Source: Prostheceraeus crozeri (lineage: Eukaryota > Platyhelminthes > Polycladida > Euryleptidae). Taken from it: DNA of 64,000 nt. Positions 5,563 through 64,000 of the stretch are shown here, piece after piece. The stretch covers positions 62,001-126,000 of the forward strand of contig CAJQUW010009000.1 in the NCBI GenBank assembly GCA_907163375.1. The letters run 5' to 3'. Below the pieces are notes generated by a model that was not told the origin of the DNA, searched no databases, and saw only the letters and a list, made by a program, of their open reading frames with translations. A program made the position numbers and the translations under genes. Every line of letters begins with the position of its first letter. The first letter of the stretch is position 1.

Positions 5563-7061
5563 ATAACTATTTCAGTGCAGTTGGTTGATGCATTTTCATC
5601 GAACAATATTCTTTTACACCAGAGGCCTGGCAATCTGTCCATAGCGCAGACCACAACATAGCTCCATTGGCAAGGCCATGATAAAAAATGCGATATTTTC
5701 CTTGATAATATCGATTATTGCTTATTATTCATTAAACAAAGCACCATTTCGAATAGTAATGTGAAGGCTGAAATTGATTCATTGAAGTGAACTTCAATTT
5801 AATTGACGGCTTTTGTGCTGACAGTAAACAAACATCACACCAGGCATGTTTTGCATCCCTTTTTGCCTTCCTCATGCGTACGCGTCCCTACCGCCGGTTT
5901 ACCTGCCTAGTATTCTCTGCAGATGAACCGCATCACAACCAGTCGGCATATGAGATGCCTCAGGCTTACTCGCAGAGAATAAGTTTCTGATCACAGTCTC
6001 CGAATCAAGGCTGAATCTGTTGAATAAGAAGTGAACCAGAATTCCTGGGGATTTAAAACATTAATCGAACAGGAGTAAGGGCCGAAACGCGAATCCTTAC
6101 CCAAGTTCCTGCTGATGACCTCAATTGCACATTTTTTCTATTAGGTAATCTGTTGTAGTTGTTATTTCCTTTAACCTGTAGGGAACGCCACATGGGCCCT
6201 TTTGAGGGATCAAATTCTTTTCACTTACCGTTATCTTCTACATACTTCATCTTCTCCTCAATCAAGGCATTAAATTTCATTCTGACGCAATTGACATATA
6301 CAAGCATCTGGGCGACCAGACCTGCAGATTAAGTTTTGTCAATGTAAGCAAATTCCACAATTACTACACTGCCCACACCACAGAGTGGCAGACAGGCAGG
6401 AGTTCTCGTGCAAGTTGGCAAATTTTTTCTCACCCTACTTATATTTACACAGACTTTTTTTTATTACCTACAATTTGAATATGATCAACATTTACATTTG
6501 TGTTTTATTCTTATTTTTCACATTGGTTTTACTTACTGAATAGTTCGATTTGTGATTTAATTAATTATTAATTGTGTTTCGCCTAAGGTTAGCCCTTGCA
6601 AAATTTGACATGTCTTTTGGGCAGATCCAATGTCAATTGATAAGCAATCTAAGGGCCATATCTGGCCCGCAGGTCAGAGGTTGCCCGCCCCAATTTTGCA
6701 CAATTAGGGAAACTCTGAAACGTTGAATAGAACGCATTGACACGGGCACTACAGGTGCATATTAACTTTTTAGCTATGATGGCCGCTATCTGTTGCTATT
6801 TGACTCATAGCATTTATTTCAAGCTATGCCGGGCTATTTCCAACTTTTAAAGAATTTTATTCTATGCATGCATAGATTTCTTCACTCTCCTATTCATAGA
6901 TGTCATCTGTAAAGTTCTACTTTACAGTGCATGGACAACTTTACAATTAAGTCATGGAGCCCGAGAAACTTTGGAGTAGATGAAAATCATTTTTATTGAA
7001 TGCTTTGATAACAAGTATGAAATACTAGAAACAGCAATTAAGACAAATTAGTCTTATAACA

Positions 7062-10115: not shown

Positions 10116-10495
10116 CATCACGCATAAATGTCTCGATGTCACAAATAAATGTTTCGATGTCACGCATAAATGGCTCAATGTCACGCATAAATGGCTGGAT
10201 GTCACAAATAAATGTCTCGATGTCACGCATAAATGGCTCAATGTCACGCATAAATGGCTGGATGTCACAAAAAATGGCTGGATGTCACATATGAATGGCT
10301 TGATGTCACAAATAAATGGCTGGATGTCACGCATAAATGGCTGGATGTCACACATGAATGGCTTGATGTCACAAATAAATGGCTGGATGTCACACATGAA
10401 TGTCTCGATGTCACACATAAATGGCTGGATGTCACGCATAAATGGCTCAATGTCACGCATAAATGGCTTAATGTCACGCATAAATGGCTCAATGT
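10116..10495. repeat. 21-bp minisatellite, about 18 units
   Basis: Head-to-tail units of 21 bp of the type GTCACGCATAAATGGCTCAAT; one unit near 10265 is a base short. Variants end in CTCAAT, CTGGAT, CTCGAT or CTTGAT and partly follow a three-unit order. The first unit as read from the lectin gene overlaps the gene's stop codon, so the array lies in the 3' untranslated region. Copy B has only two units (22336-22376). Long open frames on both strands arise because 21 is divisible by three and are not genes. Confidence 0.95.
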
Positions 10496-11265
10496 CACGC
10501 GTATCTACCTTCACATAGCCCATAATATATATTTTGTCGAGTTGGATGGTTGCAATCAACGTCGTTCCATTTGAATTCGTTCCCGGTGTTGCCAGGTTTT
10601 AAGTATTCTAAACAATTTTCATTATCGTTACTAGGTTCGGTAGGATGATAGAATGTAAACGGACACATGGTTTTGCCATCCTGCAGCAAACAATTATTAT
10701 TTGGTTGGTCCATTGCACCGATCCAGAACTTAGCCGTATATAAATTCCATTCAGCAGCATGATAGATATACTTTGAAGGGAGATTTTCTATGATCACATT
10801 CCTGATAAACTCATTCTCTGCCATGTCATCCACAGTGATTAGATACATACCAAGCTCTCCACATCGGATCCTGTTTTCACTATATGTTCCAGGACTCTCC
10901 ATTATCATGTAAAGATGACCTCGAAATCTCCATGTCAGTTGAATTGGATGATTGGGTAGTCGCACCATGAAACTTTTGGAGTGCTGATGACCATCACAGG
11001 CACGGGTTAGCAATGTGCAATTCTTATTTTCCTTGTTGAAAAGGATGCTCCTACACCTGTTGTCTGAAGCACATGATATTGCACATTTCAATTTTGAAGA
11101 GCAGTATGTGCTTGCCATTATAACTTGAGAGCAGGGAACACCTTGTCCGAGCTTGAAATACAAGGGATCGACCACCATGAAGTGATCTGTTGACAATGAA
11201 TGACATATAACTGCGACGCAGATCACACTAAAAGTGATCAAAAGAATAGTTTTGTTATCAATCAT
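10495..11265 (-). CDS. Secreted PAN/C-type lectin protein A
   Basis: Single-exon frame of 256 residues. Residues 6-22 form a hydrophobic signal peptide. Residues 44-90 hold six closely spaced cysteines (45, 55, 61, 65, 71, 83, 90) in a PAN/apple-like pattern. Residues 110-253 form a C-type lectin-like domain: Cys135, the core WIGAMD at 181-186, an EPS tripeptide at 210-212 where Ca-dependent sugar binders often have EPN, and the WND triad at 233-235 before Cys238 and Cys251. Such proteins bind carbohydrate outside the cell, often in immunity or adhesion, which is inference here. The TGA stop lies in the first minisatellite unit. Copy B differs by six residues. No poly(A) tract suggests a retrocopy. 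Confidence 0.85.
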   Translation of the reverse strand: MIDNKTILLITFSVICVAVICHSLSTDHFMVVDPLYFKLGQGVPCSQVIMASTYCSSKLKCAISCASDNRCRSILFNKENKNCTLLTRACDGHQHSKSFMVRLPNHPIQLTWRFRGHLYMIMESPGTYSENRIRCGELGMYLITVDDMAENEFIRNVIIENLPSKYIYHAAEWNLYTAKFWIGAMDQPNNNCLLQDGKTMCPFTFYHPTEPSNDNENCLEYLKPGNTGNEFKWNDVDCNHPTRQNIYYGLCEGRYA

Positions 11266-22335: not shown

Positions 22336-22376
22336 CGCATAAATGTTTCGATGTCACGCATAAATGGCTCAATGTC
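22336..22376. repeat. 21-bp minisatellite, two units
   Basis: The short counterpart of the 18-unit array at 10116-10495. It lies just past the stop codon of lectin gene B. Confidence 0.9.
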
Positions 22377-23145
22377 ACGCGTATCTACCTTCACATAGCG
22401 CATAATATATATTTTGTCGAGTTGGATGGTTGCAATCAACGTCGTTCCATTTGAATTCGTTCCCGGTGTTGCCAGGTTTTAAGTATTCTAAACAATTTTC
22501 ATTATCGTTACTAGGTTCGGTAGGATGATAGAATGTAAACGGACACATGGTTTTGCCATCCTGCAGCAAACAATTATTATTTGGTTGGTCCATTGCACCG
22601 ATCCAAAACTTAGCCGTATATAAATTCCATTCAGCAGCATAATAGATATACTTTGAAGGGAGATTTTCTATGATCATATTCCTGATAAACTCATTCTCTG
22701 CCATGTTATCCACAGTGATTAGATACATACCAAGCTCTCCACATCGGATCCTGTTTTCACTATATGTTCCAGGACTCTCCATTATCATGTAAAGATGACC
22801 TCGAAATCTCCATGTCAGTTGAATTGGATGATTGGGTAGTCGCACCATGAAACTTTTGGAGTGTTGATGACCATCACAGGCACGGGTTAGCAATGTGCAA
22901 TTCTTATTTTCCTTGTTGAAAAGAATGCTTCTACACCTGTTGTCTGAAGCACATGATATTGCACATTTCAATTTTGAAGAGCAGTATGTGCTTGCTATTA
23001 TAACTTGTGAGCAGGGAACAGCTTGTCCGAGCTTGAAATACAATGGATCGACCACCATGAAGTGATCTGTTGACAATGAATGACATATAACTGCGACGCA
23101 GATCACACTAAAAGTGATCAGAAGAATAGTTTTGTTATCAATCAT
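22375..23145 (-). CDS. Secreted PAN/C-type lectin protein B
   Basis: Paralogue of the gene at 10495-11265: same length (256 residues), signal peptide, cysteine pattern, WIGAMD core, EPS and WND motifs. By direct comparison there are six replacements (positions 42, 50, 147, 157, 168 and 249) and about seven silent changes. Allowing for the larger number of replacement sites this suggests purifying selection on both copies, a rough count only. About 200 bp upstream of the start codon is nearly identical to copy A, so both probably share a promoter. Confidence 0.85.
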   Translation of the reverse strand: MIDNKTILLITFSVICVAVICHSLSTDHFMVVDPLYFKLGQAVPCSQVIIASTYCSSKLKCAISCASDNRCRSILFNKENKNCTLLTRACDGHQHSKSFMVRLPNHPIQLTWRFRGHLYMIMESPGTYSENRIRCGELGMYLITVDNMAENEFIRNMIIENLPSKYIYYAAEWNLYTAKFWIGAMDQPNNNCLLQDGKTMCPFTFYHPTEPSNDNENCLEYLKPGNTGNEFKWNDVDCNHPTRQNIYYALCEGRYA

Positions 23146-52191: not shown

Positions 52192-52480
52192 CATGCTACG
52201 CTCAATTACGGGTAATTCACGCATAAACTACGCGTAATTACACATAACCCTAAACATCTGTGGCTATGCGTGACATTGCTGCAACATCTGTCGGCAGTCC
52301 TGTTATACAGACTTTGCGTCTCATGTGTGTGCATGCATCAGAGGCTAATAAACAATGTGATAGGACCTCAATTTCATGATCAGGGAAGACAAAACATGCT
52401 TAGCGGTTCATTTATGGTTCAAGCGGCAACTCAGACAGCCGTAGACGACGTTCAAACTATAAACGCTTGCTCGCGCGAGT
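52192..52480. mobile_element. CACTA-ended MITE, right-truncated
   Basis: Relative of 8895-9368, beginning CACTAGGTGACATGCTACGC. Similarity runs to about 52470; the right terminal repeat is missing. Confidence 0.75.
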
Positions 52481-52485
52481 AATGG

Positions 52486-52880
52486 GCAAAAGACCGTTCC
52501 AGGACACCATAAAATTCAAAAAAATAGTATCTTTAAAAACGACATAAATTCATGAATTTAGACCCTTTTTCAGGTTTTTAAGACCTAAATAAATGAATTT
52601 AGTCCATTCAAAAAGTACCATTTTTTCAAAAAATGGCATTTTTAAAAACGACATAAATTCATGAATTTTGGTCATTTTTCAGGTTATGAAGACCTAAATT
52701 CATAAATTTGGGCGTTTTTAAAAATACCCAATTTTCAAATTTTTCAAAATCTCAAATTTGAGAATTACAATTTTCTTGCTTAAATCATGACCGTTCCAGG
52801 ACACCGAAAATCAGAAAAGTTAAGGATCTCAAATTTGTGATTATGATCATTTTCTTGCTCAAATCATGACCGCTCCTGGC
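52486..52880. repeat. AT-rich repeats at the edge of the virus-like element
   Basis: A unit of about 116 bp with TTTAAAAACGACATAAATTC and AAGACCTAAAT recurs from 52532 and 52648. GACCGTTCCAGGACACC occurs at 52490 and 52787 and a variant at 52868. These lie directly left of the virus-like genes and could be part of its terminal repeat, which I cannot test because the right end is outside the window. Confidence 0.55.
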
Positions 52881-53195
52881 GTTCTTACAATTTGCACTCA
52901 GATAAACACTCAATTGTAGAGAACATCTGCTTCTCGCATTTATGAATAAAAAGCATTTCAGTGTAAAGAGCTGTGTCCTCCAACTCAAACATTTGAAAGG
53001 AAACAATGTATGAAAGAACAAACAGCTGCTACTACTCTGTGAAACAATGAGATTTTAATTGTACGTTAGGCAAGTTGTTTTACTTCTTGTTAGTGCGTCA
53101 GCACACCCGTATGACGTTAAGATATCTGCCAGCTGTACTGTTTTCATTTATCTCTCTCGTCTGTCATTGTATCGTGTGCTGCGCTGTGATCAGTC

Positions 53196-53869
53196 ATGTC
53201 AACACAAGAAGTTATCGAAGAGCAGTCAAACATTATTGCTACGTTTCCGGAGTTATTTACAGAAATTTCAAAACGATATATTTCCAATGATAAGAAGGAA
53301 GAATATAACACTTTCATCATTGAACAAATGGAGAAATTTCCTATTATTTTTGACCCTACATTTTTTGATAAGGAAAGAAAACGGAGAAGAAAAGCAAAAC
53401 GCTTACTCGTGAAAGAAAAGAAAGAAAGAGAAAGGGACGGAAAGATTGACAACCTTCATCATCAATTAACGACGTCTTTATCTACCCGATATGAATTTGT
53501 GGATTCCTTAGAAGACTTTGTTGAGCCTTCAGGAGATACTGATAAAGCCATTGCAAATTTAAATACTCTTTATGTGATGGAGAAGAAAAATAACGTTATT
53601 AACATAATGATGAAAATCTACCTGGGAAACACGCGAATTATTTACTGGATCTGTGTGAAAAGGATAAGGCATACTTTCAACATTTATTGCAAACTAATAA
53701 CATTTCTTATTCAAGGACTGAAATTGCATTTGCAATTAAATTAGGTAAGATGGCATCTATTTTTCCAAAGATTTGTAGACTAAATGTACCCTTACGTTTT
53801 TTGAAATCGAATTTATCATTGTTAGAAAATTGTCTTCGGAAATATGAAAGCTTTTGGAAAGAAGCTTAA
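53196..53869 (+). pseudogene. Unknown left-end gene of the virus-like element
   Basis: Two plus-strand frames overlap at 53687-53744 and look like one protein of about 225 residues broken by a phase change near 53630. The first starts MSTQEVIEEQSNI and has a strongly basic segment (KERKRRRKAKRLLVKEKKER) at residues 59-80, a possible nuclear localisation or nucleic-acid-binding region. The second ends in KYESFWKEA. I do not recognise the family. It is the first gene of the element and is followed by the 123-bp repeats. Confidence 0.5.
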
Positions 53870-53884
53870 AAGAACTTAAAAGTA

Positions 53885-54200
53885 GTAGTAGCTGATTTTA
53901 TTTTATTTTACTGGAGAACAAAAATTCGTTGTCCACGCTGTGGACATGTTGTTAATGCAATTTGTAATATTATAGTTAATAACCGATTGTTTTAAGGAAG
54001 TTGAATAGTAGTAGCTGATTTTATTTTATTTTACTGGAGAACAAAAATTCGTTGTCCACGCTGTGGACATGTTGTTAATGCAATTTGTAATATTATAGTT
54101 AATAACCGATTGTTTTAAGGAAGTTGAATAGTAGTAGCTGATTTTATTTTATTTTACTGGAGAACGAAAATTCGTTGTCCACGGTGTGGACATCAATATT
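53885..54200. repeat. 123-bp tandem repeat, about 2.5 units
   Basis: Units start at the GTAGTAGCTGATTTTATTTT motif, spaced exactly 123 bp (53892, 54015, 54138 for the same base). Each holds a perfect hairpin TGTCCAC-GCT-GTGGACA (GGT loop in the third). One frame reads RTKIRCPRCGH in every unit, like half a zinc ribbon. The third unit ends early. Confidence 0.9.
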
Positions 54201-54311
54201 TGTAGACTTGTGGGGTTGCATTTTTGTAAATATACATATTGAAATATCCATGTGTTGTTTTTAATTTCTCATTTACGGGAATATAATAGAAACATTTTGT
54301 CTTCTATAAAA

Positions 54312-54488
54312 ATGAGCAACATAAATGAGTTTTTTAAATTATACGGCAAACAAACTACGAATTTCGATTTAAATGAGATTGCTAATCAATTGGGAATAAA
54401 GAATTTTCACATATTGATGAGGGATGAATTACTACTGATAAAAGATGTACGAAACACTAACTCTACTAATAAAAATGTAGCAATGTAA
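54312..54488 (+). pseudogene. Truncated duplicate of the protease N-terminus
   Basis: From the ATG at 54312 the frame runs MSNINEFFKLYGKQTTNFDL and on for 58 codons, very like the first 47 residues of the protease at 54627. Similarity then stops and the frame ends. No catalytic residue is included. The ATG upstream at 54252 is less likely as a start because the similarity begins at MSN. Confidence 0.6.
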
Positions 54489-54773
54489 CGTTTTAATTTA
54501 CATTAAATTAAATCATTTCAAAATCGAATAAGTAGTAAGGAAAGTCATCATTAGAGAACAGTTTTAAATCAATACCCCCTCCCTTCTGTCTTCTAGGGGT
54601 CCCTTAAGAAATTTTTTTATTATAAAATGAGCAACATAAAGGAGTTTTTTAAATTATATGGAACGCAAACCACGACAAATGTCGACCTAAAGAAAATCGC
54701 AAATGAATTAGGAATAAAGAATTTTCATGTTCTAATGAGAGACGAATTACAATTCCTAAAAAATAAGCCAACA

Positions 54774-54802
54774 GGAACCTTCAGTTCCCGGAACAAAGTT
54801 CC
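54774..54802. repeat. Double hairpin inside protease
   Basis: GGAAC-CTTCA-GTTCC, one base, then GGAAC-AAA-GTTCC. Two 5-bp stems in a row, read in frame by the protease gene. Confidence 0.75.
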
Positions 54803-54908
54803 ATCAATAACTATAAATTTCATAACAAATCTTCATACGACAGATGAAAAAGGAATACATTGGTCTGCAGGCATCTTTAATAAAAATCGAGATAATTATT
54901 ATTTCGAC

Positions 54909-54932
54909 CGCCCGGAGGCTGAGAACTATTAG
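54909..54932. mobile_element. Double-hairpin insertion with 6-bp target repeat
   Basis: 24 bp (stems GCC/GGC and GAACT/AGTTC) between perfect direct repeats TTCGAC at 54903-54908 and 54933-54938. The reverse strand aligns with the GAACC-GAA-GGTTC ... GGGC-TTC-GCCC type seen at 62120-62306, so it belongs to the same family in the other orientation. It carries the TAG that ends the protease frame. Confidence 0.75.
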
Positions 54933-55109
54933 TTCGACTCTTATGGATTGCCTCCAACAAACGAAGTTAAAAAATTACTTGGCAATGGAATTTATAATAC
55001 ATTTCAAATTCAAAAACCGGGAACTACTTATTGTGGTCAATTATGTCTTTATGTTTTATTTAAATTACAAAAAGGAGTACAATTTCTTGATATTATGTTA
55101 GAATTGAAC

Positions 55110-55168
55110 GAACCGTAGGTTCTATGGCTACGCCTAACAAGGGAATTTCATTCCCGAAACGTTAGTTC
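55110..55168. repeat. Double hairpins between protease and integrase
   Basis: GAACC-GTA-GGTTC then GGC-TAC-GCC at 55110-55134, holding the protease stop codon, followed by GGGAAT-TTC-ATTCCC at about 55140-55154. They lie between convergent genes. Confidence 0.7.
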
Positions 55169-55189
55169 CAATAATAATGATAATGATAA

Positions 55190-56551
55190 TTAAAAATCAG
55201 TGCGTTGTAATTCATTTTGATAAAAACGGCCTCTGATATCCTCATTATCTAAATCTTTAATTTCATAAGTAATCGGATCAGTTTGATTTATTTTACAAAC
55301 TTCAAATATCTCTTTCGTCCAGTATCCGACGAAGCCTTTTTCAAATTTATTCTTATATTTAAATATTCTAACTCTATCTCCAATTTTAAATTTCGGCTTA
55401 AGTTTCTACAAATTCGGATTACTCTCATTCGAATAATTATTCTCGAATATTTTTTTTCTTATCAAATCAGGGTCGTCAGAAGCATTCTTTGGAGTTTCTT
55501 CAATACCAGAATGAACTTTATTATTGTACTCTTCTACAATTCCTGGTAATATCTTCAACCATTTCTGATTTCTTTGCTCAGTAAATTTCTTGAATAATTT
55601 ATTTTTTAACGTCCGATTGAATCTTTCTATCACTACGGCCTTCCCTGCATTTTCAGTTGAATAAACAGTTTCAAATAGTGGCTGAACGTTTCGGTTATAA
55701 AATTCCGACCCTTTATCAACAAACAATTTTTTTGGCTTTCTCTTACTTTCTTTAAAGATTTCTTCAAACGCATATTTAACTGATAGACCACTTTTATTTT
55801 TTAAAGGCTTTACCCAAGCGTATCGTGTATATAAATCTATAACGGTCAATGCGTATTTGTAGTCCCTTTCATTCGGCATATGAATAAGAACAGCACTCCA
55901 AATATCATCTTTATTAAATACTTTTACTTTCAATAAATATTTCGGCTTTCTGTATTCCCTATGAATTTCGGACCCATAGCGTCCTAGGTCATTCGACATT
56001 TCAGACGCGTAGGTTCGAGCGTTGCTCTCAGACAGCTTAGCTGTCGTTTCATTTAAACCCTGACCGAATAATATTTTAGCTTGTAAAGCTTTCTTAACAA
56101 ACATTCTTTCAATTTTTTCTCTAAATGTAGGATTCTGAATACTATCTAATTCTTGAATCATTTTCTTATCAGCTGCATGTCGAGAACTTAGATCATGATT
56201 TCGATAAGCTAAATCATGTCTATAAGCGGCGGCATCTACTCTATTTATTAGTTCTTCACCTGGTTTCGGATTATTATTCTCATCTAGTCTGATATCTAAT
56301 CGAGTTCCTGGACCGGTATATGAATGACCAGGAAGATGTTTTTCTTTCGAATATTTACTCCAAATAAATCCAGGAAAGTTTTCTAATGTTTTTTGTATGT
56401 CACCACCGTAGGTAGTAGCCAAACTTTGTTTGTCGTCGTTACCTTCATAAATTTTACAATTTGAGTTTTTATGTACTTTTAAGAGATAATTCAATAAATC
56501 TAAATTAGAAATTTTTAATTCAATTAAATTTTCGGAATTTTTAGAATTCAT
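55190..56551 (-). pseudogene. Integrase fused to a PLA2-like domain
   Basis: The 381-residue frame 55406-56551 joins two domains. Residues about 75-160 are PLA2-like as in parvovirus VP1: a GPG calcium loop at 80-82 and the HD pair at 112-113, used to breach membranes on entry. From about residue 185 it is a DDE integrase: W218 opens the core, the place expected for the first catalytic Asp holds Val221, the second Asp is 279 (FVDKGSEF) and the Glu is 309 (IERFNRTL). After the TAG at 55406-55408 the same frame continues to 55190 with an SH3-like integrase C-terminus (KIGDRVRIFKYKN). A double hairpin at 56017-56045 lies at the junction of the two domains. Integrase inserts the viral DNA; this copy should be inactive. 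Confidence 0.75.
56017..56045. repeat. Double hairpin at the PLA2/integrase junction
   Basis: GAGC-GTT-GCTC, TCA, GACAGC-TTA-GCTGTC. It is read in frame and encodes about ten residues between the two domains. Confidence 0.75.
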
Positions 56552-56598
56552 TTTAAAAGATAAAAAAATTTAAAAGATAAAATAAATGTTTACCTTAT

Positions 56599-56611
56599 GG
56601 ACCAAAGGTCC
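56599..56611. repeat. Single hairpin before gene end
   Basis: GGACC-AAA-GGTCC just 3' of the next minus-strand gene (56620-57102). The same stem occurs at 59428-59440 and in degenerate form near 57260. Confidence 0.7.
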
Positions 56612-56619
56612 TGAGGTTA

Positions 56620-57102
56620 TTACCGAATCATACTAGGACTTAGATATATTCCAGAACCATCTTTAGTTTCTTTAATTTCAATTAAATCATCAACATTGTG
56701 GAGAATAATTTTAAGAACTCGTTTTCCTTCATCAACTAAATTTAATTTACTAATAAAATTATCTACTATTCCGTCACCCCTAGCAACTTTCTCTAACTCT
56801 CTATTATGACGTTTTTGTTCTTCTAATGCTGCCTTCTCTGATTTATTTTTATTTACTGCTTGGACAATACCAGCTGTCCCGCCTGCAACACTTCCTGCAG
56901 CTGCTATGCCACCTATTATTAGTGGAATTAATGGGAGAATTCCACCATTCTTTTCTTCTTGTAATTGAATATTCTCTATCATTGGTTTACTTATGTAATA
57001 CTTTTTTTTGTTAATCGTAATAGTTTTAGGGGTATTTTTGTCAACAATATTACGTAATTTTAATTCAACAGTTTTATTATTATTACTTTTCGCTTGCGAC
57101 AT
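56620..57102 (-). CDS. Small virion protein with hydrophobic Gly-rich helix
   Basis: Intact frame of 160 residues. After a Lys-rich N-terminus, residues 53-82 form a Gly/Ala/Ile-rich hydrophobic segment (GGILPLIPLIIGGIAAAG onwards), then a charged coiled-coil stretch (AALEEQKRHNRELEKV). Small proteins with such a segment occur among the virion genes of adintoviruses and are thought to act on membranes or the packaged core; the role is inference. It sits between integrase and capsid genes on the same strand. Confidence 0.65.
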   Translation of the reverse strand: MSQAKSNNNKTVELKLRNIVDKNTPKTITINKKKYYISKPMIENIQLQEEKNGGILPLIPLIIGGIAAAGSVAGGTAGIVQAVNKNKSEKAALEEQKRHNRELEKVARGDGIVDNFISKLNLVDEGKRVLKIILHNVDDLIEIKETKDGSGIYLSPSMIR

Positions 57103-57109
57103 TTTTAAT

Positions 57110-57279
57110 AAAAAAATTTTAAGTTACGAAAAATTTTAATCTATTCTAGTTATTAAAAATTTCAAGTTACCAAAAAATTTTAAGTTACCAAAAAATGTTA
57201 ATCTATTCTAGTTATGAAAAAAATTAATTAATCGACAAAGTGTTGGGCTTTAACCGATCGGCCAAAGGTCCTTAGGTTA
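57110..57279. repeat. AT-rich intergenic repeats
   Basis: A TTAAGTTAC-CAAAAAATTTT type unit and the stretch AATCTATTCTAGTTAT each recur two or three times. The gap ends in a degenerate hairpin (about 57253-57275) related to the GGACC type. Confidence 0.65.
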
Positions 57280-58614
57280 CTAACTTATCCTTGACATCTT
57301 TCCATTAAGAATTTCAATAGAATATTTTACATCTTCTAGCAATAAACCATAAGCCATCAATGAAGTTGTGGAATCTTTCTTTTCAATATTAATTGTTACA
57401 TCATAACCAGTCTTGATAATATCTTCAGATTGTGCACTTAAATCGAAACAGAGAACAGGATATAAATGTTCCAATCTCCAGGAGTTAATTGTGGTTCAAC
57501 TCCAAATTCTATACAAAGATTTCGATAAGAATCATATCCTTCTATAAATTGATTATTGGTATCATCGAATCTTAATGGATCAATTGGATATCGGGTTTGA
57601 TTTAATGAAACTTGTAAACTTCGAATTGTATTAATATGGAAGAGATTATTGTTCTTATCAAAACTTGGAGAATTATTTCTTTGAAAAGTAAGCAATAAAT
57701 ATCTTGGAGTATTCGCAGTTCTAGTAAAATGCCAGTTAAATCTTTGTTCGGAAAAAGTTACTGAACTAGCAGTACGCTTTAGAAAATTTACTGGAATTGG
57801 TTTGTTAGTATTTAATCTTTTTGCAATAGCTGTTTCAATCTCTAAACTAGAAGTAATATGCTTAATCCACCATTCAAGTCTATCAATTTTTAAATATGCT
57901 TTTTTTCCACTCTTACCAAAAAAGATTAATTCATTATTTGCTGTACGATGAATTATTAATTAAAATTTTAATTGATATGATATTTTATCATAATCTAAAT
58001 ATCCGAATAATGGAGACAATGACCAATTTACTGTCTGTTTACTTTTCTTGTTAAATTCACGCCTTTCTTTATATGCACTATTGTTTGTTTTATTTAAATG
58101 TTTTGCAATATTTTCTACATCTTTCGCAATTCCTGCTGCATCTGTTCCAGCGTGAGTTAAATCATCAACAATTATACCATCATTAGTATCAGGAAACCAA
58201 CCTTCGATTTCATACTTTTTATTATTTTCACCAATTATTACAAATCTAAGCATTGTATCAATTACACCTGGAGAATCACTTATTGTTTCTATATTTTGAG
58301 TTGCAACATCTAAACGCATTTGTGTAAATAATCTTGGAAAAAAATTATTCTCTAGTGCAATATTATCGGTTTCTGGTAATGGTGTTGTAAAATTGGCATC
58401 ACTATACAAAGAATATTCACAGTGTAAAAATGAATCAGGTAGATATATATAACTCTGCTGATTATCAACTTCAAAGATTAAATCTCCTCCAGTATTTACT
58501 CTACTGGAAGATCCGGGGATTCATAGCAATTCTTATATAGTCATTCTTTTTTTGATTATAACTAACACCTGGTGGTTTATCTAATTCAAATTTATTTTCG
58601 ATAAGCGAAGACAT
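57280..58614 (-). pseudogene. Hexon-like major capsid protein, three breaks
   Basis: About 440 codons on the minus strand. The start ATG at 58614 opens MSSLIENKFEL. A phase change in a C4 run near 58515 is followed by a long frame to a TAA at 57960-57962; the same frame then continues to about 57475, where a second phase change leads to the last part ending at 57280. Recognisable stretches include FFPRLFTQMRLD, WFPDTNDG, LEWWIKHITSSLEIETAI and, at the end, YPVLCFDLSAQSEDIIKTGY. This pattern is that of the double-jelly-roll major capsid proteins of Polintons/adintoviruses, which form the icosahedral shell. The breaks prevent a complete product. Confidence 0.7.
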
Positions 58615-58664
58615 TTTTATAAAAAATAATTTGACTTTTTGTTTTTCTCACACACAGAAAAAAT

Positions 58665-58770
58665 TCTGCTAAAATAATTTTACTAAAATAATTTTACTAA
58701 AAAAATTTTGCTAAGAAAATTTTGCTAAGAAAATTTTGCTAAGAAAATTTTGCTAAAAAAATTTTACTAA
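58665..58770. repeat. 14-bp AT-rich tandem repeat
   Basis: About seven units of GCTAAGAAAATTTT or close variants between two minus-strand virion genes. Confidence 0.85.
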
Positions 58771-58781
58771 AAAACATAATT

Positions 58782-59369
58782 TTAGAATTTTGCTAGACCA
58801 GCTCCGCTACAGCTTTGCTGGTTAAACCGAAGGTTGCTATTAATAGCATTACCTCTTATTTCTTCAATTGAAAGAACCGTAGGTTCAATTGAACGTTTTA
58901 TGGCTACGCCTGATTTCTTCTTATGTTTGCTATCAGACGGAGCTCCCCTCCTCAAGGTTTCCCCAACAGCAATGTTAGCAATTTTATTTTTTGTTTCCTC
59001 TGAAAGTTTTTTTAAATTTTTTAGTTCTTCGGAATCATTCCTAAGTTTACGAATAGCTTCTAGTTGTTTTAATTCGTTTTGAGACTTGACAGCATTTGAT
59101 ATTGCACTAGCTGTACTACCTATAGCAGCTGCTCCTTTTGCAGCAGATGTAATCAAATCTTTATTATTTTTAATTAAGTTAACGATACTTCCAATACCAG
59201 AAAAGATGCCAGCCCCTTCTTTTTGGACGGCACCTGCGGTGCCTAGGAACTTTTGTGTTCCGACTGTTTCTCTATTATCATAATGATAAACAGGATTCAT
59301 TCGTGGTTCATGAGCAATTCTTTGATTTGAAGCAAAATGTTTAAGATTGTGTTTATAAATTATAGGCAT
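58782..59369 (-). CDS. Amphipathic minor virion protein
   Basis: Intact frame of 195 residues. Residues 48-98 contain GAGIFSGIGSIVNLIKNN followed by an Ala/Gly-rich helix and a coiled-coil segment, reminiscent in layout (not provably homologous) of membrane-active minor capsid proteins such as adenovirus pVI. A double hairpin at 59230-59262 is translated in frame near residues 36-46, and another near 58872-58915 around residue 155. The C-terminal codons (58797-58830) also form hairpins. Confidence 0.6.
   Translation of the reverse strand: MPIIYKHNLKHFASNQRIAHEPRMNPVYHYDNRETVGTQKFLGTAGAVQKEGAGIFSGIGSIVNLIKNNKDLITSAAKGAAAIGSTASAISNAVKSQNELKQLEAIRKLRNDSEELKNLKKLSEETKNKIANIAVGETLRRGAPSDSKHKKKSGVAIKRSIEPTVLSIEEIRGNAINSNLRFNQQSCSGAGLAKF
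59230..59262. repeat. Double hairpin inside virion gene
   Basis: GGCACC-TGC-GGTGCC, TA, GGAAC-TTTTGT-GTTCC. Read in frame on the minus strand. Confidence 0.8.
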
Positions 59370-59413
59370 TTTTTAGGATTAAATTTGACTTTTGGGAAAA
59401 AATATTTACGATC

Positions 59414-59440
59414 GGCTAAAGCCTCGAGGACCTTTGGTCC
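59414..59440. repeat. Intergenic double hairpin
   Basis: GGC-TAAA-GCC, TCGA, GGACC-TTT-GGTCC, between two minus-strand genes. Confidence 0.75.
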
Positions 59441-59455
59441 GTTTAAGATTTGCGT

Positions 59456-60333
59456 TTGTGAATGGACAACAACTTCGAGATAACTTTATTAATTGACTGT
59501 TGCACTTTATCTATTGCGTCAAGCAGCGTGTGATGTACTTTAATTTCTTTTCTATTAACTTGCATTTTCTGCTGATTAATCTTCAACGCCGTTTTAAGAG
59601 CATTTAACTTAATTTATAGAACATCTAATTGTCTTTTAACAGAATCCAGCTGTTCTTGATTTTCTTTAGAGTATTCTTGTAAATTTTTCTTTAATTCATT
59701 TTCTAAATTGATTTTAAGAGTTTTCATTTTATCAACTCTTTGATTAAGTGAGTTTACTTCATTTATTGTTCTATTCATCTTTTTCATTTGTTGAGTAATT
59801 TTAGAACTCAATTCATCAACACTTTTTTGGAATGTAGTTTGTAACTGCTTTAAATTTTTTTAAATTCTTTCAGGTAGTTTTTCTATTTCATCTTCTAATT
59901 GTTCTTTTAACATTTTTATCTGATGTTTATTTTTAATGACTGCAGATTTTAAATTTATAGAAAGTAATATTAAAAATTTTTGATTGTTCTGAAATCTTTT
60001 TAAAAAGTTTTGCTATATCTGCTTCTAGCTCTCTATCCTTTTTTATCAAGTTTTAATAGTTTTTCGTTTAATGATTTGTCATTAAGTTTTAGCAACTTTA
60101 ATTCATTCATCAGTGGAAACCAAAACATCGGTTATATATTTTTCTTTTAAATCATTGATTTGTGTATCAACATATTGTTTATTTGTCAACTCTGTATTTT
60201 GTTGCGGAAGAATAGAAAGATGCAATGGACCAGATAAAACGTCTCCAGTTTTCATGATATAATTTTCTATTTCTATTTCTAATTCACGATTATTCGGAAC
60301 ATGTGCACCTCCACCAACATTTGGTAACATCAT
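59456..60333 (-). pseudogene. Fibre-like coiled-coil virion protein, frameshifted
   Basis: The start at 60333 opens MMLPNVGGGAHVPNNREL. Residues 27-60 hold YIMKTGDVLSGPLHL and TNKQYVDTQINDLKE, a motif pair shared by many phage tail-fibre and viral spike proteins. After a stop at 60103 the minus strand continues in shifting phase with Lys/Leu/Glu-rich coiled-coil (for example 59614-59811, MSSKITQQMKKMNRTINE). This suggests a trimeric fibre with the head to 59456. At least three frame changes. A receptor-binding role is inference. Confidence 0.55.
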
Positions 60334-60379
60334 TTTTTAACAATAAAAAAATAAAATTTTTTCTAATAAAAATAAAAAA
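60334..60379. promoter_or_regulatory. Divergent intergenic gap
   Basis: Only 46 bp, almost all A and T, separate the start codons of the minus-strand virion genes and the plus-strand replication genes. A shared bidirectional promoter is implied by position; no TATA box can be singled out in such sequence. Confidence 0.4.
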
Positions 60380-61706
60380 ATGGAAAAACCAAATTTAAAA
60401 AAATTATATTCGCCCGCATCATCCTGTTCTTCTTATTCGACGAGATCAACGGGATTTGAAAATAAATGTTTTGATAATAATAATAATAATAATCCATGTA
60501 TAGATGTTAATCTTTTGTTTGAATTACAAGCCGAAATATTTAGAGAACAGACTAAAGGTTTACCTTCTATAGAAACTAATTATTGTTTATTTCCGGGGGA
60601 TCCATTTATTAAATTTATGGATATTGTTAGTAAATATAATGATGTAGCTTATGTGGAATTAAATAAAGAAAATATGGTTATTATTGGTCATAATAATGTT
60701 TATGGTTTTATTAGAGCAGTTTTGCCGATTAGTAATACTGATTGGATAGGAACTAAAATTATTAATTATATCAATATTAAAGAATTAGTTAAAAAATTAA
60801 AATCTTTTTCGAAAGAAAAAATTAGATTATTTGTTGACGATCAAAATCAATATAACATTCACATAGAGAGTAAAAAAACATAATGAAGAATTATTATGTC
60901 AAGTTTATTATAGAGACACAATTTATAAACGAGAAACATTAGAAATGCCGCAAAGATATGATGATGATACTTATATAGGATTATATTCAAACTTAAATAT
61001 TAATTTGTTAAAATCTTATATAAATGGTTTAGCTCAAAAAGAGAAAATTTATATGTCGACTACACCTTATACTATTAACAATGACCATAATCATAATCAT
61101 AATAATCCTCTGAATCATATTGAAGAAACTGATAATATAAATGATGATTCTGTAACATCTGAAAAAGGTGTAAATGGTAAAAAAGATTATAAAAATTTAA
61201 GTGAAGAAAAATTTATATCTCATAGTGATGTACATGATATTAATACTACATATAATCAAAATTTATCTAAATTTCATTTTCTTACAATTGAAAATAATAA
61301 TGATGGTATAGTTGAAGATACTGTTAGACAACTATGTGTCGGGTCTACAAAATTTAAATTAGGATTTACATCTAATCAATTTAAAATTTTATCATCTTTA
61401 ATAAAAACTAAAAGTGATTCAGATTATGGTGGTGTTATTAAATTTTCCAAAAGAGATCAAAGACCAATATTTTTCTCTATTATATTATTATCAGATAAAA
61501 GATGTAATTTAGAATTAGATATTCCAATAAGAGAATGGTATCCTATCATGGAAGGGCATCCTATACCAAAAAGTGTAATTTATGATGTTGAAGAAACAAT
61601 TTATGATGATGATGAAGAATCAATTGATGATGATGATGAAGAATCAATAGTTAGTGAAAATAAATTTAAATTATCTTTTGATAAAACATTATATGATGAA
61701 ACTTAA
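60380..61706 (+). pseudogene. Unknown acidic two-part protein upstream of polymerase
   Basis: Two frames (60380-60883, 60945-61706) are probably one gene broken at an A7 run near 60871. The first part has a Ser-rich N-terminus and an Asn run, then a compact domain (NKENMVIIGHNNVYGFIRAV, KIRLFVDDQNQYNIHI). The second has a Lys/Asp linker, a domain with KFKLGFTSNQFKILSSLI and FFSIILLSDKRCNLELDI, and a highly acidic tail. The paired beta-rich domains and the position before the polymerase make a sliding-clamp-like role conceivable, but I see no proof. Otherwise unrecognised. Confidence 0.45.
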
Positions 61707-61745
61707 TATGATAAAACTTAATATGATAAAACTTAATGTGATAAA
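61690..61745. repeat. 15-bp tandem repeat after stop codon
   Basis: Three to four units of ATGATAAAACTTAAT covering the end of the acidic gene and its 3' flank. Confidence 0.85.
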
Positions 61746-62119
61746 GAAAATAAAATAACTTAAGAATGTGAAATATATAATAATATATGATAACTCTCAA
61801 GTCCTTGATATTAGAATGTTTATATCTAAAATTAAAACACAAATTTTTCTTTAAAAAATAAAAAATGGGAAATACCAAGTTTTATTGTGTCTTATGTAAA
61901 AAAAAGTTGCAAACAAAAAGAAGTTATCAATCTCATTTAAATAGTAAATTGCATTTACAAAATGTAGATCGAGTTGATGAAGGAAATATATTAAAATTAA
62001 ATAGTTATAAAAAACTATCTAGAAACATTGCCTACTGATATAAAAGTTAAAAAAATGTTTGATGATTATTCACATTCGGAATATAAAAAAGTTTTTAATA
62101 GTGAAGATGAGACCATACA

Positions 62120-62144
62120 AACCGAAGGTTCTAGGGCTTCGCCC
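62120..62144. repeat. Double hairpin inside polymerase, 1
   Basis: AACC-GAA-GGTT, CTA, GGGC-TTC-GCCC. Translated as TEGSRASP. Confidence 0.85.
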
Positions 62145-62217
62145 GTACCAGATGGAAGATATTTATTTAGCGATACTGATGAATTTGATGAAGCTGAACG
62201 AACCGATGAAGCGGAAC

Positions 62218-62242
62218 GAACCGAAGGTTCTAGGGCTTCGCC
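62218..62242. repeat. Double hairpin inside polymerase, 2
   Basis: GAACC-GAA-GGTTC, TA, then GGC-TTC-GCC. It follows an 18-bp tandem duplication (GATGAAGCKGAACGAACC) and is translated as RTEGSRASP. Confidence 0.85.
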
Positions 62243-62280
62243 ATTAACAGATATAAAATATTTATTTAATGAATCTGTTC

Positions 62281-62306
62281 GAACCGAAGGTTCCAGGGCT
62301 TCGCCC
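62281..62306. repeat. Double hairpin inside polymerase, 3
   Basis: GAACC-GAA-GGTTC, CA, GGGC-TTC-GCCC. Flanked by GTTC and GTTG, a possible short target repeat. Confidence 0.85.
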
Positions 62307-63825
62307 GTTGAACATAATGAAACCGATGAAACTTTTTATAATGTATTAACAAATTTTTATAATATATTTAAGAAATCTTTCAAATGTTATATGAATGTAG
62401 AAGTACTTTATACAAAAAATGGACCTGATGGAATTCCTGAAGAAATAATACAAGGACATTTTACAAATTCACAAGAAATTCATAATGTAAATGATATACA
62501 ACCCATATTTGAATCGATGATACTTAAATTAGAAAATTGTATAATTGAAGCCCAGTTACGTGAATCTGGTTGGAGATTTGTTAAAATACTATCTAAGAAA
62601 ATAGTAATTGATAAATATAAAAATAATACTGGTGGTAGTTATATTCCTTTACCTTTCAGTTCACCACAAATAATCAACATAAAAAATGAAGATGATTATT
62701 GTTTTCTGTGGAGTATTATAGCACATTTACATCCTGCAGAATATCATAAAGAAAGACTAAGTCATTACAATAAAGAAGAATACATAAATGAATTTGATCT
62801 TTCTGATGGCTTAGATGAATTTCCATATGATTATAATAGGTTAAAAAAGTTTCATAAAAAGAATAAAAATTTAATAGAAGTAAATGTTTTTGAATTAAAT
62901 GTGAATTATGTTTCTATTGGTAAAATTACTCCACTTTACTCAGATTCAAAAAAATTTTATTTGAATAATAAAAATTTATGTCAATCAGAAATAGTATATA
63001 ATGATAGGGGAAATTACATGCATCATAATATTTTTTACCAAAGAAATATAATATGTACTGAAAATTTTCAAACTGTTAAAACACTATCACCAATAATGAT
63101 TAATCATAATAATTATAAAGGACGTAATTATAATTATGATTATGATTCCGATTATTTATCTTTAGAATATCAACAAAAATTACAAAATTTAAATGAAAGT
63201 TTACAAAAATGTAAAACAGATTATCAACAACAAACAAAAATATTAGTACAAGAATATGGTCATAATTATCAAAATAAGATAGAAACGATTCAAAAATTAA
63301 ATGAAGACAATAAAGAATTAAATAATGAAGAAAATGAAACCAATCAAAAAAAATGAATCTTTAAAAAAATGTCTACAACAATATAAAGAACAATATGATA
63401 AAGAATATAGTTATCAGCTACAAATATTAAATCAAAATTTTCATCGAAATACATTTAATCTTACAAAAGAAATTGATGAAACACATGAAATATATCAAGA
63501 TAAATTTGAAAAATTAAAACAAACAAAACAGCCAGCACAAGCGAATATATTATATTATCAGGGTCATTTTATATTGTGTAAAGATGTTTCTATATCACAA
63601 AAACTTCAGATAATGCCAATTTTCCTTGTCTCCAATGTATGACAAGTTTTAGAACTAAAGAAGAAATGAATAGACATTTGGAGAATTGCCAACAAAATGA
63701 AGCAGTCAGAAACACATTTCCTAAAGATGATTATTTAGAATATAATAAATGGTATTTTAAAAATAAAGTACCCTTTACTATTTATTGTGTTTTTGAAGCA
63801 TATAATGTTAATATGACACAAAATC

Positions 63826-63893
63826 GAACGGAAAGTTCCAGGGCTTAGCCCGATTGTGATAATTGTACGGGCCAAGCCCTAGAACCTTCGGTT
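63826..63893. repeat. Two inverted double hairpins inside polymerase
   Basis: 63826-63851 (GAAC/GTTC and GGGC-TTA-GCCC) and, in opposite orientation, 63869-63893 (GGGC-CAA-GCCC, TA, GAACC-TTC-GGTT), 17 bp apart. The first contains TAG at 63846-63848. Confidence 0.85.
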
Positions 63894-64000
63894 TTTAATT
63901 ATGAAAAAAGTGCAGCTGAACAAGGTAAAGAAAAATATTTATTTGAACAAAAACCATTATGTTGGGGAATGTACATTCATTCAAATTATCCTGAATTATT

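Follow-up and report, generated by a model that had tools for sequence, protein, structure and literature searches.

The right end of the 64-kb stretch of DNA analysed here (the window, G000:C7476:62001-126000 in the 2.05-Gb assembly of the flatworm Prostheceraeus crozeri, 14,165 contigs) is part of a Polinton-type element, which runs from window position 52478 to about 70247. This element carries GC-rich units of 21-36 bp, made up of two hairpins at nearly all sites. Comparison of element copies revealed that these units are present or absent as blocks, that they are bordered by a 3-bp duplication, that they exchange hairpins and that the examined places of one subfamily, A, lie in the element. 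Taken together, the sequences suggest that the units are non-autonomous mobile DNA, which probably inserts as one piece into the Polinton-type element and duplicates 3 bp of its target.

A strict scan for double hairpins (stems of at least 4 bp, loops of 3-5, linker of at most 6) detected seven in positions 53883-64000, against a mean of 0.34 and a maximum of 3 in 200 dinucleotide shuffles. The part of the window before 53883, which still includes 1.4 kb of the element end, contained 14, which is the chance level (8.8 on average and up to 18 in 30 shuffles). With units recognized by eye and by similarity added to the scan, the part of the element inside the window has about 16 double hairpins rich in GC, at least nine of them inside coding frames as judged by eye. 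Every unit listed in the first-pass annotation of this DNA is indeed found in the sequence, and those at 55110, 55141, 56599, 57260, 58810 and 58874 are added here. The subfamily proposed there holds for 62120, 62218, 62281, 63826 and 63869; the unit at 54909, taken for an inverted GAACC/GGGC copy, is another one, GCCCGGAGGC-TGA-GAACTATTAGTTC. With up to three mismatches allowed, subfamily A has six matches in the window, all from 55110 onward, and none in 100 shuffles; the copies at 62119, 63826 and 63870 carry one, three and two changes, respectively. Across 70 loci, some of which overlap, adjacent hairpins with short loops and a short linker form 234 pairs, and these are of 45 kinds. Unit families A-F and the S8 type have unrelated stems and one common architecture. 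Pairing between the two loops of family A (a pseudoknot, GAA with TTC and GTA with TAC) was considered and dropped, because it breaks down in families B, C and E and because, for the most part, the two versions of A occupy different sites.

The units of the window are as follows (position, strand, description).
54770-54802, plus: family D unit at site S9 in the protease-like gene, AAC-A-GGAACCTTCAGTTCC-C-GGAACAAAGTTCC; the target triplet is AAC in L048/L064, and L064 is the empty allele.
54906-54938, plus: site S8 in the protease-like gene, GAC [CGCCCGGAGGCTGAGAACTATTAGTTC] GAC, from alignment of copies.
55110-55134, plus: A-type unit S12 with loops GTA/TAC, intergenic.
55141-55169, plus: double hairpin GGGAATTTCATTCCC / GAAACGTTAGTTCC, S13, intergenic, varying between copies; outside the count of eight sites given below.
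56017-56045, minus: family B unit in the linker between the phospholipase-A2-like and integrase domains.
56599-56624, minus: family E unit between gene ends, where other copies have from one to three modules.
57260-57285, minus: family E unit after the capsid-like gene.
58810-58835, no strand assigned: double hairpin CAGCTTTGCTG-GTTA-AACCGAAGGTT.
58874-58910, plus: A-type GTA/TAC unit with 15 nt between its hairpins, read by eye.
59229-59261, plus: double hairpin in a coding frame, found in all seven copies compared.
59414-59440, plus: intergenic double hairpin with two versions of each hairpin.
62115-62147, plus: site S1 in the N-terminal part of the PolB open reading frame (ORF), a triplet, a 27-bp A unit (62118-62144) and GTA, from alignment of copies.
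62214-62246, plus: site S2, A unit at 62217-62243, target GTA, both triplets altered in the window copy.
62277-62309, plus: site S3, GTT, a 27-bp A unit (62280-62306) and GTT.
63822-63854, plus: site S4, A-type unit, with a stop TAG in hairpin 2 of the window copy.
63868-63894, minus: site S5, inverted A-type unit, missing in L022, L038, L039 and L042.

The S8 unit also reads TAG, an in-frame stop, in the window copy and TGG in the other filled copies shown. We read the in-frame TAG of the units at 54909 and 63826, not found in the other filled copies shown, as decay of the window copy.

Mobility of the hairpins, suspected from the window alone, is supported by clean empty sites. A first look at three element stretches gave 1,106, 4,612 and 3,560 candidate copies, of which 40 per stretch were scored; 96 loci were counted as element loci. 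Copies from this genome that are 96-99% identical to one another either have or lack an entire unit at the identical base. In 30 copies of the PolB-ORF stretch, whose unit-free part diverges by 1.9% on average and whose closest filled/empty pairs differ by 0.6-0.8%, the numbers of filled, empty and unreadable alleles were 11, 18 and 1 at S1, 11, 14 and 5 at S2, and 15, 15 and 0 at S3; at the sites beyond the window they were 20, 9 and 1 (S6) and 19, 9 and 2 (S7). In 30 copies of the integrase stretch, S8 was filled in nine and empty in five (16 unread, meaning here and at the next two sites that the search pattern had no match in the copy), and S9 filled in 11 and empty in one (18 unread). At S10, which adjoins an endonuclease-VII-like motif, six filled and 14 empty alleles were found (10 unread). 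Empty alleles of S1, S2 and S3 read ...GTACCAG, ...GTAACAG and ...GTTGAAC, and in filled ones the triplet, sometimes with one base changed, stands at both sides of CGAACC...GCCC. Across the genome, S3 gave 726 filled and 689 empty exact pattern matches (reversed controls, 0), a rough ratio since the two patterns differ and the filled one covers the unit's right edge only. Not every unit was seen to vary: the one at 59229 is in 7/7 copies, and unit B (56017) recurs in most loci of the integrase stretch.

Removal of the unit and of one 3-bp triplet from the filled allele yielded exactly the observed empty allele in eight of nine allele pairs. The eight sites, all coding, are S1, S2, S3, S6, S7, S8, S9 and S10. 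At six of them the typed alleles contain an intact direct repeat of 3 nt or more, with a chance expectation of about 0.10 each; that of S1 is intact in two other alleles, L032 and L042. The common order starts with the target triplet and one base, followed by hairpin 1, a short linker, hairpin 2 and the target triplet again. At most sites a single base precedes hairpin 1 and the triplet follows hairpin 2 directly; S9 and S7 conform to this if one changed or shifted base is allowed. Coding inserts at the eight sites measure 30, 33, 24 and 39 bp (from units of 27, 30, 21 and 36 bp), all multiples of three; for intergenic inserts this does not have to hold, with lengths of 29 and 31 bp among them. 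Read by eye, the triplet coincides with a complete codon at S1, S2, S3, S6, S7, S8 and S10, and not at S9.

Single halves of a unit are exchanged at several sites. In some copies of S2, S3 and S4, hairpin 1 of family A is swapped for GACATC-NNN-GATGTC, with hairpin 2 unchanged, and at 59414 all four combinations of the two versions per hairpin were found among seven copies. The site at 57260 is bare in five of 24 readable copies, three more lack the E-type stem, and the rest carry one or several units, tandem ones being separated by TAT/GAT-C.

Subfamily A appears to be confined to the element. Its pattern occurs at 5,980 places in the 2.05 Gb (reversed control, 0), and 28 out of 28 examined places (eight as they stand and 20 with the unit masked) lie in element copies; for 13 of these the match is to the terminal repeat region, and for six of the 13 to the adjoining end of L077 as well, the weakest being L083 with 68 nt. 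In the host part of the window no A unit was found within three mismatches, so there is no sign that A units are common in the host. The units sit in Polinton-type copies, and a mitochondrial origin was rejected on the 4.3 kb read around COX1 of the mitochondrial contig, in which no double hairpin was detected. The host COX1 reading frame itself (G000:C6227:15936-17282, L099) starts well ahead of the usual start, has eight TGA read as sense and looks bivalve-like at first sight.

Nor do related copies carry identical units at identical codons, as would be expected of fixed protein sequence: near copies have empty sites, and three relatives lack some units at the protein level. Relative P0001 (62% identical) is devoid of the three S1-S3 inserts and of the S4/S5 pair, and P0002 (93% identical, starting after S3) of the S4/S5 pair. 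The integrase relative P0074 (74%) lacks the stretch bearing the 56017 unit, which is weak evidence because this linker varies freely in the family. A distant relative, L008 (54% identical, from a bacterial bin), has no double hairpin in its 7.2-kb contig. No relatives were found in scans of IMG/VR, where seven pattern matches look unrelated by eye, and no phage records matched the integrase protein. Among the matches listed from the open-licence literature, no title or abstract dealt with hairpin units of Polintons or adintoviruses, and none of the open-licence papers searched contained any of four peptides encoded by units or either of two unit sequences.

How might such units move? The filled state would be the derived one, and the units would multiply during replication of the element, because no unit was found in host DNA. 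Whatever moves them would recognize folded hairpin pairs and not sequence, since families A-F and the S8 type share their architecture with unrelated stems, and would make a 3-nt staggered cut. A structure-specific nuclease of branched DNA acting on extruded hairpins, for example an endonuclease-VII-like (HNH) domain, is the preferred candidate, albeit a tentative one. Such a domain was found in the PolB ORF of relative P0001, and the endonuclease-VII family cuts branched DNA with a short stagger. Recombination between copies would then spread and shuffle the alleles, and coding inserts would survive mainly if unit plus duplication is a multiple of three without a stop, adding 8-13 residues. 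The element's integrase was rejected as mover, an unlikely one since the element's own duplication is 6 bp and that of the units 3 bp. In its most general form, the proposal would be structure-guided transposition in eukaryotic DNA viruses, in which hairpin pairs of 21-36 bp are recognized by their fold and not by sequence, and a branched-DNA nuclease encoded by the element moves them in trans, with a stagger of 3 nt; we put this forward tentatively, as possible and not as probable. If true, few mobile units in animal nuclear DNA would be smaller, and viral proteins could receive in-frame insertions from them.

Several observations weigh against the mobile-unit reading. S13 failed the flank check; at S2 no sampled allele has both triplets intact and the repeat is seen only by combining alleles; the duplication at S6 is ambiguous (3-5 nt); S10 has a single strong hairpin; S4 showed no empty allele, and S5 was read by eye with one mismatch. 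The 28 confinement places come from the first 100 of the 5,980, not from a random draw, some share one element copy, and both they and the genome-wide counts cover subfamily A only. The compared copies revealed neither an enzyme nor an excision product nor a fresh insertion, the link to endonuclease VII is guilt by association, and the direction, gain as opposed to loss, rests on reuse of the same unit and on protein relatives. Finally, on a tree of the flank, 6-11 changes of state are required at each of five sites. As all four filled/empty combinations were also found for S1, S2 and S3 taken pairwise, recombination among element copies is likely; to judge from these patterns, alleles move either by recombination or by repeated gain and loss.

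These points bear on the other explanations as well. The many changes on the flank trees, together with the unit at 59229 in all seven copies compared and the prevalence of unit B, would also fit old parts of the element whose polymorphism arose by precise loss between the 3-bp repeats and recombination. We consider this quite improbable: each single deletion between 3-bp repeats would need to have been exact, the occurrence of one unit sequence at several sites still needs earlier copying, and the S1-S5 inserts are missing in P0001 and the S4/S5 pair in P0002. Replication slippage would dispense with a nuclease: during strand-displacement replication the growing strand would switch to a folded unit elsewhere on single-stranded element DNA, copy it and switch back. 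This reading draws on the PolB encoded by the element and on the shuffling of hairpin modules; strand-displacement replication exposes single strands. Such slippage does not predict a constant 3-bp duplication at differing target sequences, and the unit ends fall at a constant place relative to the hairpins, which makes it unlikely in our view.

Selection as 3'-end signals of element transcripts is another thinkable origin of the hairpins, and a hairpin rule for transcript ends has reportedly been found in Mimivirus. The units at 56599, 57260 and 59414 do lie at gene ends, and their stems change on both sides with pairing kept. So many units inside coding frames and the bare copies of the site after the capsid-like gene speak against it, so that we consider it very unlikely; as the whole story, a terminator role was rejected on account of the bare copies at 57260. 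Highly repeated elements are presumably hard to assemble, yet an assembly artefact is extremely improbable given hundreds of exact matches to each S3 allele over many contigs. Insertion of mobile units with a 3-bp duplication is thus the explanation we prefer.

The carrier itself is about 17.8 kb long between its terminal inverted repeats (start 52478, end L078:247). Alignment of the terminal repeats places its start well before 54774, near which it had initially been assumed. Its left end in the window comprises two features.
52472-52477, no strand assigned: 6-bp target duplication CGCGCG of the whole element; second copy at C7476:132248-132253 (L078:248-253), from alignment of both ends.
52478-52833, no strand assigned: left terminal repeat region, with tandem repeats inside it; matched in inverted orientation by L078:1-247.

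At five other element ends the bases outside AGTAATGGG differ, and CGCGCG therefore does not belong to the repeat but is a target duplication. Duplication of 6 bp of target is typical of Polintons. Pfam matches in the element comprise a fused integrase and phospholipase-A2-like domain, PolB and a packaging-type ATPase, the integrase match being just below the curated cut-off (32.0 vs 32.6 bits). The carrier thus combines the Polinton hallmarks PolB, integrase, ATPase, terminal inverted repeats and 6-bp duplication. Protease-like (adenain-like) and capsid-like genes were assigned by eye, the scanned pieces giving no such Pfam match, and several reading frames are broken in the window's copy. 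The 2.05-Gb animal genome holds very many copies of the element (window 52478-64000, L077, L078:1-247), and a difference of about 2% between the closest of them points to a recent burst.

Other peculiarities of the element were seen in passing. The integrase core and the phospholipase-A2-like domain share one frame (window 55409-56551, minus strand), and both domains are present in most of the best 120 of 599 relatives. Beside the protease-like gene lies a 123-nt repeat in three head-to-tail copies (53883-54251), and the start of this gene is partly duplicated ahead of it (54309-54446 and 54624-54764). Short tandem repeats (15-nt and others) at 61679-61742 and their equivalents in L017-L046 vary in copy number between element copies and are distinct from the hairpin units. 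The first 52 kb of the window are host DNA with lectin-like genes and transposon remains, as judged by eye. Two of these genes, at 10495-11265 and 22375-23145 (minus strand), are near-identical, which suggests a recent duplication.

Double-hairpin elements of Allomyces were reportedly described by Paquin et al. 2000. Rickettsia palindromic elements sit in frame inside proteins, as the present units do, and are palindromic too; they differ in being longer (about 100-150 bp) and bacterial. MITEs (miniature inverted-repeat transposable elements) of nuclear transposons are likewise non-autonomous and make a short target duplication, whereas the present 27 bp of two hairpins leave no space for ordinary terminal repeats and belong to one element family.

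Organelles are known to harbour mobile hairpin units, whose mechanism there is, according to excerpts of the papers, still open (PMC2800124, PMC4478555). With hundreds of near-identical copies here and both alleles near-equal at one site, insertion point, duplication and exchange are resolved to the base and the mechanism becomes testable. The units may also offer DNA viruses a way of acquiring short peptide insertions that keep the frame. In the excerpted account of Magnusiomyces mitochondria, short inserts in coding genes are bypassed in translation (PMC5009743). The present units are short inserts in coding genes as well, with the target triplet often a whole codon, so that the codons flanking the unit match; unlike the Magnusiomyces inserts, which disrupt frames, they keep the frame and are predicted to be translated through.

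Yeast mitochondrial GC clusters, including GC42, display an AG duplication as well as merger and shuffling of units, their mechanism being open in the part of the paper considered (PMC4478555). They share with the present units GC-rich hairpins, presence or absence between strains, a short target duplication, and merger and shuffling; going by the same part, GC42 differs by its organelle DNA, its 42 positions, its mostly intergenic location and a duplication of 2 bp instead of 3 bp. For the mitochondrial double hairpins of Allomyces, the excerpted text reports no flanking duplications (PMC2800124). The likeness to chytrid mitochondrial elements noted in the first-pass annotation holds for the two adjacent hairpins; on the same excerpt, occurrence also within genes and differing frequencies in close relatives are shared too. 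It does not extend to mitochondrial location and absence of flanking duplication, as the present units reside in a virus-like nuclear element with a 3-bp duplication. As far as these excerpts go, the units behave like yeast GC42 and look like Allomyces double hairpins, and by location and duplication they are filed in neither group.

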